Virus record (IMG/VR): IMGVR_UViG_3300017751_002750
Location: 1-38,024 of that record
DNA: 38,024 nt
Origin: a virus
Strand: one strand, 5' to 3'
Shown here: positions 4,827 to 38,024 of the stretch, piece by piece
Position numbering within the stretch: position 1 is the stretch's first letter
How the letters are laid out: every line of letters begins with the position of its first letter
Made by a program: the position numbers and the translations under genes
The notes under the pieces: model-generated
What the model was told of the DNA's origin: nothing
What the model saw: only the letters and a program-made list of their open reading frames with translations
The model's database searches: none

Positions 4827-5156
4827 TTAATCTAATACTTCATCTATTTCCATTGTGTCCATTTGATGTTCACCTACAAATCTTTCAAGGCTATGAGCTT
4901 TCTTATCCAAAACTGGATACCAAATACTCTTGGTTCTATGTGTCATGTTTCTCTGACCAATAAGTTCGGCAAATTCTCTGTAGTCCTCTTCATTTCTGAA
5001 ACGAATCTTGATCATCTTATGTGCTTCAGCCTGTGGTTGGTTGAAATCTGGCATATCATCCCAGTCATAAGGTGTTGTTTCTTCTTCACTACCATCTAAC
5101 ACAAATAAACTTTGTGGTTCATAGTTGATAGCTTTATTTAAATCTTTATTCGACAT
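4827..5156 (-). CDS. conserved small phage protein in the glycosyltransferase operon
   Basis: A 109-aa soluble acidic protein. The first 45 residues are low-complexity and acidic (SEEETTPYDWDDMPDF). The C-terminal 65 form a compact domain, IKIRFRNEEDYREFAELIG followed by RTKSIWYPVLD. I recall this 'f.teed..eFa.liGq....ktkSiWyP' block from other phage proteins, sometimes beside ParB-like or DNA-modification genes, but I cannot name its function. The start overlaps the end of the TET-associated-type glycosyltransferase gene by 11 bases, and only one base separates its stop from the next start. Confidence 0.7.
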   Translation of the reverse strand: MSNKDLNKAINYEPQSLFVLDGSEEETTPYDWDDMPDFNQPQAEAHKMIKIRFRNEEDYREFAELIGQRNMTHRTKSIWYPVLDKKAHSLERFVGEHQMDTMEIDEVLD

Positions 5157-6114
5157 TTAATTCCTCCTGCTCGTCCAATGTATTAGCTGATTTTAATTTT
5201 ACTAAATGCATTCCATAGTTATTAGTACCTTTAGGAATATTTAGCCCTGGTTTTTTAGTGGGTTTAGTATTTTGAAAAACCGTATAATCAATATGATGAT
5301 GCCAACGGCCCCACTTTTGTGTAATCTTTACTTCGTCTGGATGTTGAGCATGTAAAGATTCTGCAAACTCTCGTCTATGGTCAAAGTCGTCACCACCCAC
5401 TCGGTCATGTTTAGTACCTGCTTGGTCTATACCATAAACCTCTTTAGTGTTACCACCTTTCATTGTTAATGTTGCGACTTTACCACATAACATTGCATTA
5501 AACAAGTATGTATGGTAACCGCCTTTCATGACTCTCAATGACAGATCTGTATCCTCATTGAACTTACCACGCCAGTAGAGTTCTCCACTTTCATATACAT
5601 CATTAGATAAAAGAATACATGAGTAAACTCTGGTATTGTGATAGTAAGGTGGTCGTTTGGTAAAGGCAGGACAGAAGAAAGCATAGTTCATACCAGACAT
5701 TTTAACATCAGTATACCTATCAGTAAAGTCTTCGCATACTCTGAAACATGCTGGTGTGGTCATTTTGGTCTTTCTATTATTATGTAACCTATAGAAGTTG
5801 TGGATATTATCATCCATAATCCAATGACGTTTGTGGCCTTCGTTAATAGAATGTTCCCACACCCAGTTACGAACTGGAATAGAACCACCCATCAAACCAG
5901 TAACATCACATTTTCTAGCCCATCGTGGGTTTTCTCTGAATCCTTCAGGTAGTACCAATAGTCTGTTAGGGTTAATTACTGCAGCGTAATCATCATATTC
6001 TGATTCTTCAATAACAACCCGATACATTGCTCCCATTTCGTCCAGTGACTTAACTGTCAGTCTTGAATCTGCACGACCTTTAGAAATTATGTAAATAGGA
6101 TATCTTGATTGCAT
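5146..6114 (-). CDS. TET-associated-type glycosyltransferase (TAGT-like)
   Basis: A 322-aa GT-A-fold glycosyltransferase. The start YPIYIISKGRADSRLTVKSL has the SKGR block that binds the nucleotide sugar in this family. VLPEGFRENPRWARK and VRNWVWEHS lead to HWIMDDNIHNFYRL, where the DD near residues 101-102 is the metal-binding DxD equivalent. A later WRGKFNEDTDLSLRVMKGG matches the second conserved acidic block. From memory this is the family encoded next to TET/JBP dioxygenases in phages, where members add sugars to hydroxymethyl-pyrimidine bases. No TET gene lies in this window. It is the second gene of an operon starting at the promoter at 6433-6461. DNA as acceptor is inferred from family and context. 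Confidence 0.75.
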   Translation of the reverse strand: MQSRYPIYIISKGRADSRLTVKSLDEMGAMYRVVIEESEYDDYAAVINPNRLLVLPEGFRENPRWARKCDVTGLMGGSIPVRNWVWEHSINEGHKRHWIMDDNIHNFYRLHNNRKTKMTTPACFRVCEDFTDRYTDVKMSGMNYAFFCPAFTKRPPYYHNTRVYSCILLSNDVYESGELYWRGKFNEDTDLSLRVMKGGYHTYLFNAMLCGKVATLTMKGGNTKEVYGIDQAGTKHDRVGGDDFDHRREFAESLHAQHPDEVKITQKWGRWHHHIDYTVFQNTKPTKKPGLNIPKGTNNYGMHLVKLKSANTLDEQEELNVE

Positions 6115-13113: not shown

Positions 13114-13416
13114 TTATTTTTCATTGTACATGCGATCGTGTTCATACAAGGCAAGTAATCCATAATGTAAGACCTTTTGGAGATCCTTTCGAAAATCCTC
13201 AGGAGTCTTACCTTTCTTTCCATATCTGGCCACATATTTGTCTACGTTACCTAGAAAGAATCCCATCCCATGGCCCCTGTCTACTATGACTTCAGAAGAT
13301 TGTAATCCCCCTTGTCCGTAGTGAGCGCCGTAAGTAGAATCAATATACGTTTGGAGCTCTTCAATAAGAGCTCCTTCGTTAAATTTATAATCGGGTTTAG
13401 AAGTTGATTTCTTCAT
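13114..13416 (-). CDS. DUF3310 (SaV-like) protein
   Basis: A 100-aa protein starting MKKSTSKPDYKFNEGALIEE. The frame extends 11 codons upstream, but GAGG lies 6 nt before the ATG at 13414-13416. GHGMGFFLGNVDKYVARYGK near residues 58-77 is the DUF3310/SaV signature (F.lGN..KYl.R.g.K); a helix with KDLQKVLHYGLLALYEHD follows. The family is common in phages and was loosely annotated as a nucleotide kinase; true function unknown. It overlaps the end of the MoxR-type ATPase gene by 20 bases and so is expressed with it. Confidence 0.8.
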   Translation of the reverse strand: MKKSTSKPDYKFNEGALIEELQTYIDSTYGAHYGQGGLQSSEVIVDRGHGMGFFLGNVDKYVARYGKKGKTPEDFRKDLQKVLHYGLLALYEHDRMYNEK

Positions 13417-14563
13417 TGCTATCCTCAGTAGTGGTTTCTTGTTCATCAAAGTTTACACCTTGGTCCACTTTCGTGTATAAGTCCAAGAAAGCCAGTTTAG
13501 TATCATCGTCAAATCTCGCAATACATAGGTCGATTGACTTCATTTTATCTTTAAAGATGGAGAAGGTTTGGACGATGTGGCACAACCTTCTTGTTGAAAT
13601 AACTTCGTCAACACCATCATCATAGAAGGTCTTTCTGATGATATCGGCCCAAGCCACTAGATTCTCTGCGAACCCATCATCAACCAAGTCAAACTTCTCC
13701 ATGTGTTTGATTACAATTTTCTTTTCAACAGTTTGTGAAGGGAACTGTTGGTCAACAGCCACTGTGAACCTCTCCAAGAATGCATCATCAATGATAGATG
13801 CCGCGGTGAATCTTCCGTCTTCCGAACCTTTACCTTTGGTATTGGCAGTCGCTATAACATTGAAACCAGCCGCTGGAGTGATTGTTTCACCCGTTTTCTT
13901 AACCAGAACAGGTTTACCTTCAAGTATACCTTGAAGACACATAATTTTATTTGTAGCTCTATCAATTTCGTCGAGAAGAAGGATAGCGCCGTTTTCCATA
14001 GCCTTGAGTACCGGTCCTTTTGAAAAGACAGTCTCGCCATTAATAAGTCTAAATCCACCAAGTAAATCATCCTCGTCAGTTTCTGGGTTAATTTGAACCC
14101 TAATAAATTCTCTACCGAGCTTAGCGGCAGCTTGTTCAACCATAAAGGTCTTTCCGTTACCTGATAGTCCAGATATATATACCGGATAGAACATTTCAGA
14201 TTTAATAATCTTAACTACATCTGTAAAAGCACCCCAAGGGACGAATGTTGGGTCGACCTTGGCATAATTATGTTCATCGTTAACAATCGACTGCATTTGA
14301 GCAGCTGCAACTGGAGCTGATTCCATAGTATTTACTACTTCCGTATTCATTTTCGGTTTGACCGCTTCGATAGAAGCAGACAGGTCATAGGTGCCGATTT
14401 TTACTCTGGCATCCTTGGCAATTAAGGGGACAAAATCTGGACTTCTATATCCCATAGATTTTGCAGTATCCACGATCACATTCTTCCTGAATTGTGTCTG
14501 GTCTGGGTACATTGTCATTAGCTGTTTGACAATGTTTTGGGTTGATATTCTCACTTCATTCAT
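13397..14563 (-). CDS. MoxR/CobS-like AAA+ ATPase
   Basis: A 388-aa AAA+ protein of the MoxR/CobS class. Residues 1-110 form an N-terminal domain with helix MNEVRISTQNIVKQLMTMYP. Walker A SGLSGNGKT is at 131-139, then RVQINPETDEDDLLGGFRL, Walker B ILLLDEID (194-201) and sensor NVIATANTKGKG. Marine T4-like phages carry this gene, usually labelled cobS after the cobaltochelatase subunit. MoxR-type ATPases work with VWA proteins as unfoldases or chaperones, and the next gene (14691-16832) encodes such a partner. Both genes have identical promoter-leader sequences. No other cobalamin gene is present, so a role in remodelling a protein complex is as likely as metal chelation. Confidence 0.9.
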   Translation of the reverse strand: MNEVRISTQNIVKQLMTMYPDQTQFRKNVIVDTAKSMGYRSPDFVPLIAKDARVKIGTYDLSASIEAVKPKMNTEVVNTMESAPVAAAQMQSIVNDEHNYAKVDPTFVPWGAFTDVVKIIKSEMFYPVYISGLSGNGKTFMVEQAAAKLGREFIRVQINPETDEDDLLGGFRLINGETVFSKGPVLKAMENGAILLLDEIDRATNKIMCLQGILEGKPVLVKKTGETITPAAGFNVIATANTKGKGSEDGRFTAASIIDDAFLERFTVAVDQQFPSQTVEKKIVIKHMEKFDLVDDGFAENLVAWADIIRKTFYDDGVDEVISTRRLCHIVQTFSIFKDKMKSIDLCIARFDDDTKLAFLDLYTKVDQGVNFDEQETTTEDSNEEINF

Positions 14564-14569
14564 AATTAA

Positions 14570-14601
14570 AACTCCTTATCATTTAATATAGGTATATTAT
14601 A
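14570..14601 (-). repeat. 32-bp promoter-leader repeat, copy 1
   Basis: These 32 bases are identical to 16836-16867. On the minus strand they run from the TATAAT -10 box through the leader to the AAGGAGTT ribosome-binding site of the MoxR-type ATPase gene. Confidence 0.9.
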
Positions 14602-14624
14602 CTACCATTACTGCAATTTGTCAA
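14596..14624 (-). promoter_or_regulatory. sigma70-type early promoter of the MoxR-type ATPase
   Basis: TTGACA (14619-14624), 17-bp spacer, TATAAT (14596-14601) on the minus strand; both hexamers are perfect. The -35 lies in a small dyad, TCAACA/TGTTGA around AAAG. Confidence 0.9.
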
Positions 14625-14690
14625 CACTTTTGTTGAAAAAAAGTATATTATTTTTATATCTTTTTGTTATATACATATTTCCTTTTATAA

Positions 14691-16832
14691 TCAAGCAACT
14701 GCCTTACCGAACTTAGTCATCAAGACTTTGTTTAGTTTCTTACTCTTGGCGAACTTCTTAAATGCCGTTCTGATGTTGGCATTTGAAGCGTCATCTGATA
14801 CAGAGAACTCGTCTTCCTGTGTGTCCAGATTCTTGCCACCTTTCACAAGGTAGTACTCTTTGTAACCAAGTACGTTATTAACTGAAACACACTTGTTTTT
14901 TCTGTACTCTTTGTTAGCCTCTGCCTTGTACTCGTCAGAGTATTTGTTTAATTCATCCGATAGAATCCACAATCTCTGTCTCCAATCACTGTTATCGTTA
15001 GCCATGAAGAAGCCGATGTTATTTGTACCATACTTTTTCTTCATGTTACCGAGAAGAGCTTTAGTAATATTCCTTGATCCGTTTTTGCACTTGATAAAAG
15101 AACCATCAATACTAAACGCTACATTGTACCTATCAGGCCAAATTCTGTTATCGTCATTACCTTTATGATATACCGACATTCTGTTTGCATCGCCATCCGT
15201 AAAGGTGATGAAATTCATTTTCTCAACACCATGCTTCTGTTTGAACTTCTTTACAAGGTGATGAGATATTACCAATGCCTGGTTAAGTGGTGTTGAACCC
15301 CACTCCTCATATCTACACAAAGCATTCCATCCATTCATTTTTGTTCTAAAGAACATGTGTTCCATTGAATTTAAGAAATCTGTTTTACTGAATGATGATG
15401 AACAGATATGAGGCATTGATAACCCATCCATTTCCATAACTTCATTATTCTTCTGAAAGTCCCAATCAAAGGCATCGTTACCAGTAGTAAACCCATACAC
15501 ATCAAACGGAATGTTTGTAGCTTTACAAAACATAACCAAGTGCATAACTTGATCAAGTACTTGTTTCATTGAACCTGACATTGAACCTGACATATCAACC
15601 AGAAGCATCATTCCGTGATTCTTGGCATTGGCCAGATTAGTAGCGGTTAGAAAGATGTCTTCGTTAGTCTTATAAGACCAAAGTTTGTTTACATCCAAAG
15701 TACCAGTCTTAGCAGTTGTAGCTCTACTGTACTGATACGCCGCTTTTCTCATTTCAAATTCTTTTACAGCAACCTGGACATTCTTTTTAAGTCCTTTCAT
15801 GTACTGTTTAAATTCTTCTGGAGTATATGCAGTCTCAAAATCTTTTTTCATCCATGAATCATCATCAAAGGATGCTTTGTGAGTTTCTCTTGCAGATTTT
15901 AACTTCTTGTAATCAATTACTGCCTTACTTATAATTTCTTTATTCACATCATTAAAGAATATTGGCTGCTTACCGTCTTCGCCTTGGTCGATCAGCTCTT
16001 TCTCTTTTTCTCTAAAGATTGTATCAGTAATGGATATATCTTCGTCTTTATGTACTGGTTCAGCAGCCTTAACAGAAACTGGTTCTTCACCACTCTCTAG
16101 TTCTTCTTCGGTTTCTTCACCCGAATCCGATGGTTGTTCTTGTTGTTGTTCTTGTTCTTCTGACTCTGTCTCTTCGCCATCATCATGTCCTGGTGAATCA
16201 AAATTGTCATTACTTTCTGACTCTTGATCATCATCCGAAGAATCATCAACTTGTGGTTCAGGTTTCTGCATCAACTCTTCTTGGTTCTCTTTAGTCCAAG
16301 CCAAGATGTCTCTTACAAGGTCCAATACCTCTTCAAATGATTTGGTAGTTAAAGACCTATCTAGGAATACTTTTTCTTCTGATGTAAACGGCACATCCAA
16401 CTTAGAACCAAGTTTAGTTTTAAGATTGATTTTGTCGATTAGTTTAATTTCATCCCATTCAATATCTGTAAGGTCTCCGAAGAAGTCTCTTTCAAGTAAC
16501 TGTTCGTAGCCTCTGTTAAAAGAACCGACCAAACCAGGGTATCTTGACTGGATTTTTCTTTCGATTCTAGCATCTTCAATGACATTGATATAAGTCCTAG
16601 GGCAACCTTTTAATTTCTCAGGGCTGTCATGCCAACCTTCAAATGGAGTTTCTAGTGCGTGACCAACTTCATGGCCAACAAACAAATCATATACATCTTT
16701 GTGCATATCATCCCACAGTGGTAACCCGAGAACACGATTTTTGAGGTCAAACCAAGCAGTCTTATAGTTACCATGTTGCACGGTAACATTCTCTTTAGCG
16801 AGTAGTTTCGGTAGTAGTGAAGATTTGTTCAT
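14691..16832 (-). CDS. HExxH metalloprotease-like and VWA-domain protein (CobT-like), partner of the AAA+ ATPase
   Basis: A 713-aa multi-domain protein. Near the N-terminus FVGHEVGHALETP carries HExxH (H54, E55, H58), and YINVIEDARIER (E86, D87) could give the third zinc ligand, as in gluzincins. Residues about 195-255 are an acidic, Glu/Gln-rich linker. The C-terminal VWA domain has MIDAS motif LLVDMSGSMSG (413-417 DMSGS) and TFTDGDANR. CobT-type VWA proteins pair with MoxR/CobS ATPases, and that ATPase is the next gene downstream under an identical leader. Whether the HExxH is an active protease is not known; CobT homologues usually keep only the E/DAR part. Its size suits a regulated chaperone or protease working late in particle or host remodelling (inference). 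Confidence 0.85.
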   Translation of the reverse strand: MNKSSLLPKLLAKENVTVQHGNYKTAWFDLKNRVLGLPLWDDMHKDVYDLFVGHEVGHALETPFEGWHDSPEKLKGCPRTYINVIEDARIERKIQSRYPGLVGSFNRGYEQLLERDFFGDLTDIEWDEIKLIDKINLKTKLGSKLDVPFTSEEKVFLDRSLTTKSFEEVLDLVRDILAWTKENQEELMQKPEPQVDDSSDDDQESESNDNFDSPGHDDGEETESEEQEQQQEQPSDSGEETEEELESGEEPVSVKAAEPVHKDEDISITDTIFREKEKELIDQGEDGKQPIFFNDVNKEIISKAVIDYKKLKSARETHKASFDDDSWMKKDFETAYTPEEFKQYMKGLKKNVQVAVKEFEMRKAAYQYSRATTAKTGTLDVNKLWSYKTNEDIFLTATNLANAKNHGMMLLVDMSGSMSGSMKQVLDQVMHLVMFCKATNIPFDVYGFTTGNDAFDWDFQKNNEVMEMDGLSMPHICSSSFSKTDFLNSMEHMFFRTKMNGWNALCRYEEWGSTPLNQALVISHHLVKKFKQKHGVEKMNFITFTDGDANRMSVYHKGNDDNRIWPDRYNVAFSIDGSFIKCKNGSRNITKALLGNMKKKYGTNNIGFFMANDNSDWRQRLWILSDELNKYSDEYKAEANKEYRKNKCVSVNNVLGYKEYYLVKGGKNLDTQEDEFSVSDDASNANIRTAFKKFAKSKKLNKVLMTKFGKAVA

Positions 16833-16835
16833 ATT

Positions 16836-16867
16836 AACTCCTTATCATTTAATATAGGTATATTATA
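16836..16867 (-). repeat. 32-bp promoter-leader repeat, copy 2
   Basis: Identical to 14570-14601 over 32 bases, covering -10 box, leader and AAGGAGTT ribosome-binding site of the VWA-protein gene. The sequences on either side differ. Confidence 0.9.
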
Positions 16868-16890
16868 TCAGAAAATAGGGGTGTTGTAAA
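16862..16890 (-). promoter_or_regulatory. sigma70-type early promoter of the VWA-protein gene
   Basis: TTTACA (16885-16890), 17-bp spacer, TATAAT (16862-16867) on the minus strand. The -35 hexamer falls in the loop of the hairpin at 16876-16897. Confidence 0.85.
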
Positions 16891-36385: not shown

Positions 36386-38024
36386 TTATCCTATGTATGC
36401 GTAGATTTCTACAGAAACCGCGCTTCCGCCAGTTAACCCAGTTCTAGCCGAATTAAACCATATCTCAAAAGTTTGACTTGCAGGGTAATAACTGTCTGAG
36501 CCGTATCTATGATTTATGGAAACTTGTATGGCGTTATTGCCATAATCTTTGTGATCTGTGTAAGCACCACTATTTGGAGCATGTCCCATAGCCGGCCCGA
36601 GTGGAATCTGATGTCTTTGATTAGAGTTGGAACTATAAGTAGTAAACCAAAATCTATCTGTTAGTCGGTGAGCTAGGTAATCTCCACCACCAGCACTTAC
36701 ATCATATGTATATACTCTAAAGTACATTGGCATGCCTGTAGTAGAAGAAGAACTGGCTCCAGGAATCCAAGATTGTAGTTGGGATCTTGTAGTAAACGGG
36801 TACCATGTATTAGCCGAAAAGTTACCTCTCATAGAGAAATGTGCTACATGATGATTATAATATCCTGCTGCAGATATTGACCCCCTGTTTGCGCTTGTTC
36901 CAGCATCATTGTTACTTACATCATACCCACCATTTGATCCAGCATTTGTGCTCCATGCATTAGAAGTTGCAGCTGGTGCTGTGACTTCTACTACCTTATG
37001 CCCAGGATGAGGCGAGTCTTGTACTCCGGCCTCCCCCACGGACAAATCTCCAGCATAATTAAGTGTCATTGCTTGAGTTGGATTAGCATTATTTGCCGTC
37101 CAGAAGTTTAATGCACCGTATTGTCCGGCGGCTCTTTGCTCTGCCTGTACCATTGCAATCCAACCAGCACCACTCGAAAATTTCTGATTTATATGAGAAG
37201 GGTTAGCATTAACTGTAGTTGCTAATTCTAATTGTGTTACGGTGGTATCAGCTTGTGTTGAAGTTTGTAGATGAAGCCTTGCACTTGGAATTGCAGTTGT
37301 TCCAATACCAACGTTGCCAGTAAATCCATGAATAAACATTACTTCGGCCGGAGTAGTATTATTTAATTTAGTTTTAAATGCAATACTCCCAGAGTAGCTA
37401 CTTGCATTTAAAGACCTGCCATAGTTTTCTATAGTAAGTCTTTCTGCACCTGATGTGTATTGTACTAATGCTCCATAAGTTCCTATCGCTTGAGATGCTA
37501 GTTCTAGGGTAGAAGTATAAGGTGATGTACCTGATTCATAAATAATAACCCTAGAATCAGACGCATCTTTGATGTATAGATTTGCTGCAGCTGGTATAGC
37601 CTGGCCTCCATTTCCTATGGAAACATTACCCACCGCATCAATCATCAATTTTGAATTAGAAGTAGCAAGCGGACTTGCTCCTGTAGATGCACCTTGCAAT
37701 ATATGAAAATCACCATAGTTACTATCAGCAGGTCCAATAGCCCAATCTCTTACTCTTGCATCATTCGTACTTGTGGTAGACATTACTAGCATAGGAGCAG
37801 TTGCATAAGTGTTAGTGTTACCTTCTATATTAAGTATACTAGCTGGATTATTTGTGCCGATACCAACTTTGCCGTCCGCTTTTATTATTATCATTTTTGT
37901 AGTAGCGTTAGTATCATATATTACGAAGTCGCCAGGATTATATACATTAGCTCCTACTCTCCACGCCTGTCCTGAGTAGCCAAAATCCATAGTCGGTCCA
38001 GAAGCACCACTACCAGACGCTTGG
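36386..38024 (-). CDS. fibre-like virion protein, C-terminal part (runs off window)
   Basis: At least 546 codons; the frame stays open to the end of the window, so the ATG at 37990 is probably internal and the true start lies beyond 38024. The first part contains fibre repeats with the VGIGT motif: GKVGIGTNNPAS, GNVGIGTTAIPSA, with related GNVSIGNG and SVGEAG. These are typical of beta-helical phage tail fibres and virion appendages. The last 200 residues form a different globular domain rich in aromatic residues (NTWYPFTTRSQLQSWIPG, YLAHRLTDRFWFTTYSS), perhaps the tip or a carbohydrate-binding module. No S74-type autoprotease motif is evident. A receptor-binding role is inferred. Confidence 0.7.
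   Translation of the reverse strand, partial: QASGSGASGPTMDFGYSGQAWRVGANVYNPGDFVIYDTNATTKMIIIKADGKVGIGTNNPASILNIEGNTNTYATAPMLVMSTTSTNDARVRDWAIGPADSNYGDFHILQGASTGASPLATSNSKLMIDAVGNVSIGNGGQAIPAAANLYIKDASDSRVIIYESGTSPYTSTLELASQAIGTYGALVQYTSGAERLTIENYGRSLNASSYSGSIAFKTKLNNTTPAEVMFIHGFTGNVGIGTTAIPSARLHLQTSTQADTTVTQLELATTVNANPSHINQKFSSGAGWIAMVQAEQRAAGQYGALNFWTANNANPTQAMTLNYAGDLSVGEAGVQDSPHPGHKVVEVTAPAATSNAWSTNAGSNGGYDVSNNDAGTSANRGSISAAGYYNHHVAHFSMRGNFSANTWYPFTTRSQLQSWIPGASSSSTTGMPMYFRVYTYDVSAGGGDYLAHRLTDRFWFTTYSSNSNQRHQIPLGPAMGHAPNSGAYTDHKDYGNNAIQVSINHRYGSDSYYPASQTFEIWFNSARTGLTGGSAVSVEIYAYIG

Follow-up and report, generated by a model that had tools for sequence, protein, structure and literature searches.

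The marine bacterial-virus record IMGVR_UViG_3300017751_002750 (38,024 nucleotides, analyzed at its full length and hereinafter the window) codes on its minus strand for a MoxR-type AAA+ ATPase (P0002; 388 amino acids; 13397..14563), which belongs to PHROG 249 and is labeled 'CobS' in its relatives, and for an adjacent protein of 713 amino acids with an HExxH motif, a linker and a VWA domain (P0001; 14691..16832), which belongs to PHROG 459, named 'peptidase' (E 1.9e-177). Since the partner of the ATPase keeps a strictly conserved zinc-peptidase-like site that the genuine B12 enzymes have lost, the two genes probably encode a machine that remodels or cuts proteins, and not a vitamin function. 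The pairing of the two genes, the domain layout, the strict conservation of the site, the homology of the N-terminal domain to that of CobT via intermediates, and the fact that genuine CobT no longer has the site are supported by the data. Drawing on sequence, structural models and analogy, we further favor, with somewhat better than even confidence, the reading that the viral pair combines a motor with a metallopeptidase that would cut a target presented by the motor, and that it is made from host-type promoters.

Domain layout and conservation of the HExxH site

The initial annotation had attributed to the partner of the ATPase an HEVGH...EDAR region and a VWA domain with an intact metal ion-dependent adhesion site (MIDAS), and both open reading frames (ORFs) are indeed found where it placed them on the minus strand, with these motifs present. 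The N-terminal zincin-like domain of P0001 (residues 1–191; 16260..16832, minus strand, as are all features of the two proteins) carries the HEVGH motif at residues 54–58 (16659..16673) and, in the next helix, the motif N83-V-I-E86-D87-A-R89-I-E91, in which E86-D87 (16572..16577) provide the candidate third metal ligand, with D87 being favored. A disordered acidic linker (residues 194–257; 16062..16253; predicted local distance difference test score, pLDDT, < 50) separates it from a finger and VWA domain (about residues 340–713; 14694..15815) with a complete MIDAS (D413-M-S415-G-S417, T514 and D546-G547). The alignment to PHROG 459 is approximately full-length (residues 6–713 against positions 9–736 of 736 in the profile), and a Pfam search with P0001 recovered a single weak match, to VWA_2.

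The metallopeptidase-like site is about as strictly conserved as the MIDAS. Among 137 non-redundant full-length viral homologues, E55 and E86 are kept in all, and H54, H58, N83 and D87 in 136 each, as compared to 137 of 137 for D413, S415, S417 and D546 of the MIDAS; the HExxH-site residues thus rank among the most conserved positions across the whole protein, which speaks against a chance motif. The sole exception is Pseudomonas phage nickie, with SEISK in place of HExxH and ES instead of ED. Two of the four viral scans behind this set were searched with an ED-type pattern and two were not; in the latter, H54, E55, H58, E86 and D87 are all intact in 46 of 46 non-redundant homologues. Hence, a conservation survey of the kind that the initial annotation had proposed finds the histidine and glutamate ligands invariant in close homologues. 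The site is also retained in SSU5 and CMS-2020a from enteric hosts, while Vibrio phage ICP2 (L226, 4032–5774) has an intact HECYH but VD replacing ED. On a 112-kb Acinetobacter baumannii plasmid, probably a phage-plasmid, a CobT-like protein (L224, 5001–6929) adjoining a MoxR ATPase near dnaE has a decayed site (QEVAK and EEARVE). The invariance of the site among the bacterial relatives partly reflects selection, because that set was gathered in part with HExxH and EDxR patterns; four bacterial members recovered solely with the PF06213 model (L333, L334, L336 and L337) also retain it. One family member (L335, 2245–4065) shows a spacing variant, HEIVCH with NILEDPRGE, and the Ochrobactrum phage protein, used as a query, returned no relatives.

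The full-length model of P0001 has a mean pLDDT of 82. Its VWA half best matches, among PDB structures, the VWA domain of NorD bound to NorQ (9qh6; Z 16.8, root mean square deviation 4.7 over 259 residues), with the matched range including the finger, which in the published structure enters the ATPase pore (PMC13036017). Because VWA domains filled the structure search with the whole model, the N-terminal domain was folded alone; the resulting AlphaFold2 model, of a region for which the initial annotation had also called for a structure prediction, is confident (pLDDT 89.6, predicted template modelling score 0.86). Its best PDB matches, namely BepA, Ste24, abylysin, ArdC, selecase, PprI, BlaR1 and ZMPSTE24, are zincin-type metallopeptidases or relatives thereof. 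The Z scores are modest (4.7 to 6.4), and the best 19 matches listed contain no unrelated fold; a fold unable to bind zinc, which the initial annotation had named as a second ground for refutation, was not encountered. Viral structure matches come from haloarchaeal viruses and from several phage 'CobT' proteins, among others. A sequence profile of the domain matched nothing in the PDB, and the absence of solved CobT structures (9uka and others) from the structure matches is evidence neither way.

The ATPase matches AAA_5 (E 6.6e-22), CbbQ_C (3.9e-4) and phrog_249 (E 7e-113), and in the PDB NorQ and CobS about equally. It possesses Walker A (GLSGNGKT, G132–T139) and Walker B (LLLDE, D198/E199) motifs and a candidate arginine, R265, that is invariant across 107 non-redundant phage ATPases. 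The window thus places an AAA+ protein in which the Walker A, Walker B and arginine residues are all intact next to a MIDAS-bearing VWA protein, as expected of a MoxR/VWA pair. Considering the 186 informative loci, i.e., those in which the ATPase was found or the downstream flank was long enough to judge, the ATPase gene lies near the VWA gene on the same strand in 183 (upstream of it in three of these), with a median gap of 135 bases. Across the phage collection, HExxH–VWA relatives are present in 463 records and ATPase relatives in 705, with equal counts for the two genes in records of Synechococcus phage (365), cyanophage (61) and Prochlorococcus phage (24); the ATPase relatives of Listeria and Staphylococcus showed no HExxH–VWA protein among the neighboring ORFs that were read. 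The divergence of the two proteins is coupled when tested against neighbors (partial r 0.55–0.63), which is suggestive only, as the pairs are non-independent. In the haloarchaeal virus HHTV-2, the zincin and VWA domains are split over two ORFs (L343, 416–1483 and 1703–2989).

A motor coupled to a candidate metallopeptidase

By analogy to NorQ–NorD and CobS–CobT, we posit that the MoxR-type motor and its VWA partner work together, with the ATPase assembling as a putative hexamer and the VWA finger placed in its pore. ATP hydrolysis might then shift the VWA domain against the N-terminal domain and thereby remodel a target. What distinguishes the viral pair from genuine CobST is an N-terminal domain whose zincin site is still complete, with H54, E55 and H58 and, most probably, D87. 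This domain is predicted to bind zinc, and would most likely cut a target that has been presented or opened by the motor. Such opening and cutting is the simplest reading because the N-terminal zincin site is intact. The pair would be produced from host-type promoters and not as a late virion-assembly factor, with this timing being a prediction. The proposal of the initial annotation, a MoxR–VWA remodelling machine or ATP-dependent protease, thus gains support from the invariant ligands, the zincin-type matches and the NorD-like VWA domain, to the extent that sequence and models allow.

Several points weigh against cutting. The structural scores of the N-terminal domain are modest (Z no higher than 6.4, with a best E value of 0.13 in Foldseek), and the invariance of the metal site would also fit a structural role, or a site that holds a target without cleaving it. 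Moreover, nickie and the Acinetobacter element lost the site yet retain the VWA protein and the ATPase, and in some lineages remodelling may therefore be enough. A rival reading is a NorQ–NorD-like machine for remodelling or metal insertion, whose zincin-like domain would hold a metal or recognize a target but not cut. The match of the finger-bearing VWA domain to NorD, the functioning of genuine CobT without an HExxH motif, and the retention of the pair in the nickie and Acinetobacter relatives lend weight to it. We nevertheless consider it unlikely, though deserving of attention: the catalytic-type E55 is invariant along with the ligands, which is more than would be expected of a pure binding domain.

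Relationship to CobT and the cobalamin reading

PF06213, which represents the N-terminal domain of CobT in Pfam, is matched by proteins from mobile elements and bacteria that carry HExxH and NxxEDxRIE. In profile–profile comparisons with hhalign, the profile of these proteins matches the phage domain with 99.5% probability (E 3e-23) and, more weakly, genuine CobT (93%, E 3e-7). When the phage N-terminal profile is set directly against that of genuine CobT, the match is not significant (probability 1.3%, E 0.038), albeit in the expected register, and the homology to CobT hence rests on the mobile-element intermediates. PF06213 likewise does not match P0001 itself and matches nine of 95 relatives (best 5.5e-10). 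Thus, as judged from these profile comparisons, the phage N-terminal domain is probably homologous to that of CobT through mobile-element intermediates.

In genuine alphaproteobacterial CobT both histidines are gone and the position of D87 is mostly occupied by Gln or Thr. This loss is coordinated more widely: in a family set of 163 sequences with less than 70% identity, D87 is kept in all 140 that have HExxH (in Gordonia MrWormie after realignment, as AEDIRCD), and is missing in 22 of the 23 that do not and kept in one, with one of the 23 (L306) being uninformative as the wrong region was read. E86, in contrast, persists in most sequences that lost the histidines. D87 is favored over E86 because it is lost along with the histidines while E86 mostly stays, and because ICP2 combines VD with HECYH; this pattern points to D87 as the candidate third metal ligand. 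The several losses of the site (nickie, the Acinetobacter element and CobT) look independent.

These relationships bear on two published readings of the family. A survey of archaeal viruses treated the cyanophage 'peptidase' as a mislabeled CobT (PMC8651126), while a survey of jumbo phages described a MoxR–vWA pair with an N-terminal metallopeptidase domain and proposed a role in virion assembly (PMC7824862). Both probably concern one and the same family, and each is right in part: the family is related to CobT, yet the viral proteins keep the site that CobT lost. This includes the proteins, cited as CobT, of the haloarchaeal viruses HCTV-2 (HEMEH and NVLEDQYID) and HHTV-2 (HEVQH and NVLEDNHID), both with the full site.

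The first of these readings would make the pair a phage cobaltochelatase, with CobS and CobT joining the CobN of the host and raising cobalamin output, and the 'peptidase' label a mistake. Besides its publication for the haloarchaeal and cyanophage homologues, it can draw on the place of CobS among the best relatives of P0002, on the N-terminal homology to CobT via mobile-element proteins, and on the CobN/ChlH-type proteins of cyanobacterial hosts. We find it improbable: the score of P0001 against the CobT equivalog TIGR01651 is 18.7 bits (cut-off 759) and that of P0002 against the CobS equivalog TIGR01650 is 60.6 bits (cut-off 558), both far below what membership would entail, and the His and Asp residues retained in the phage protein have been lost from genuine CobT. 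In line with the initial annotation, which had noted no cobalamin gene nearby, the CobN family has zero matches in the window and no cobalamin gene was recognized among its scanned ORFs. CobN is likewise absent from nine complete phage genomes carrying relatives, and has no match in the genomes of Vibrio albus, V. sinensis, Edwardsiella anguillarum and two Providencia, all of which carry a relative. For the HExxH CobT-like proteins in CobN-lacking genomes of Vibrio, Edwardsiella and Providencia (L250, L251, L261, L262 and L266), some of them on plasmids, no related ATPase was detected in the flanks examined.

Promoters, gene neighborhood and comparison with known systems

Each gene of the pair is preceded by a host-type promoter. 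Consensus matching identified a sigma-70-like TTTACA-17-TATAAT upstream of the HExxH–VWA gene (16862..16890, minus) and a consensus sigma-70 promoter, TTGACA-17-TATAAT, upstream of the ATPase gene (14596..14624, minus). An identical 30-nucleotide leader, TATAATATACCTATATTAAATGATAAGGAG, spanning the −10 box and the ribosome site, lies upstream of both (16838..16867 and 14572..14601, minus, exact copies); these are its only two copies in the window and none arose in 100 shuffles, so that the leaders look like a duplicated control cassette. In closer related loci, 38 of the 101 VWA genes and 48 of the 82 ATPase genes are preceded by such a promoter with one mismatch or none, as compared to best matches in shuffled controls that average about 3.6 mismatches. 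In the wider set of loci the corresponding figures are 22% and 32%, which exceed those of gp44, gp46 and gp47 and are similar to those of gp45 and gp55. The late motif TATAAATA is found upstream of gp18 and gp20 in the window and before neither gene of the pair, with several other head genes also being without it. The sigma-70-type promoters together with the absence of TATAAATA upstream of either gene suggest expression by the host RNA polymerase, before the virion genes.

The window contains T4-like replication, head and tail genes, as recognized by profile scans of its ORFs. In the direction of transcription, the minus-strand order is gp55, gp47, gp46, the HExxH–VWA gene, the AAA+ gene, a DUF3310 gene, gp45, gp44, gp62, regA, an Hsp20 gene and DNA polymerase; the pair thus sits within a replication/late-sigma module, between gp46 and gp45, and not with the head and tail genes. 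The same gp46–gp45 placement, with a CobS-like ATPase, is seen in P-SSM2. That the pair is a virion-assembly machine which also processes structural proteins, as proposed for the MoxR–vWA pair with an N-terminal metallopeptidase domain in jumbo phages (PMC7824862), is very improbable given this position away from the head and tail genes, the host sigma-70-type promoters and the TATAAATA motif at gp18 and gp20 but not at either gene of the pair, even if promoter matches are no proof of timing.

Elsewhere in the window, genes for a nucleotide-sugar epimerase (77–937), a UDP-glucose dehydrogenase (1304–2494) and a glucosyltransferase-like protein (5146–6114) might function in DNA or surface sugar modification, an ORF of 534 amino acids without a PHROG match (36386–37990, minus) adjoins the neck genes, and PADLOC made no defense assignment.

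Returning to the motor-coupled metallopeptidase, its extension to the phage cobS/'cobT' pair at large, in cyanophages, pelagiphages, SSU5-type phages and haloarchaeal viruses, as an ATP-driven early metallopeptidase, with CobT being a relative whose peptidase site decayed upon recruitment to cobalt insertion, is a possibility that we raise tentatively and lean somewhat against. The matter is of consequence because cobS, which belongs to the core genes of T4-like cyanophages, is routinely tallied as a vitamin-B12 auxiliary gene in surveys of marine viruses; if its partner is a metallopeptidase, these tallies describe something else. The finding also bears on a standing dispute over the annotation of the phage cobS partner and suggests an origin for the N-terminal domain of CobT.

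The family itself is already known, with PHROG 459 being called 'peptidase' and the MoxR–vWA–metallopeptidase pair having been described in jumbo phages (PMC7824862); new here are the conservation of the site, its coordinated loss in CobT and the host-type promoters on both genes. The window pair shares with PHROG 459 and PHROG 249 (the latter 'porphyrin biosynthesis') of T4-like cyanophages and pelagiphages both family membership and the gp46–gp45 neighborhood, although P0001 is only about 31–36% identical to the proteins of named phages, and in P-SSM2 three small genes separate the ATPase from its partner, whereas the window genes are adjacent. The group 2.2 jumbo phages (ASV44729.1/ASV44728.2) are comparable, by description, in having a MoxR ATPase adjoining a vWA protein with an N-terminal metallopeptidase domain; while virion assembly was proposed for them (PMC7824862), the promoters and position in the window suggest an earlier role. 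With CobS–CobT the pair has in common its overall plan, a homologous N-terminal domain (through intermediates), the linker and a VWA domain with MIDAS; it differs in that genuine CobT is without the HExxH and Asp, that the phage proteins score far below the model cut-offs and that the tested phages have no CobN. NorQ–NorD, which functions in the maturation of nitric oxide reductase, offers the closest solved VWA domain, including the pore finger, and an ATPase to which P0002 is about as near as to CobS; the target of NorQ–NorD is a host enzyme.

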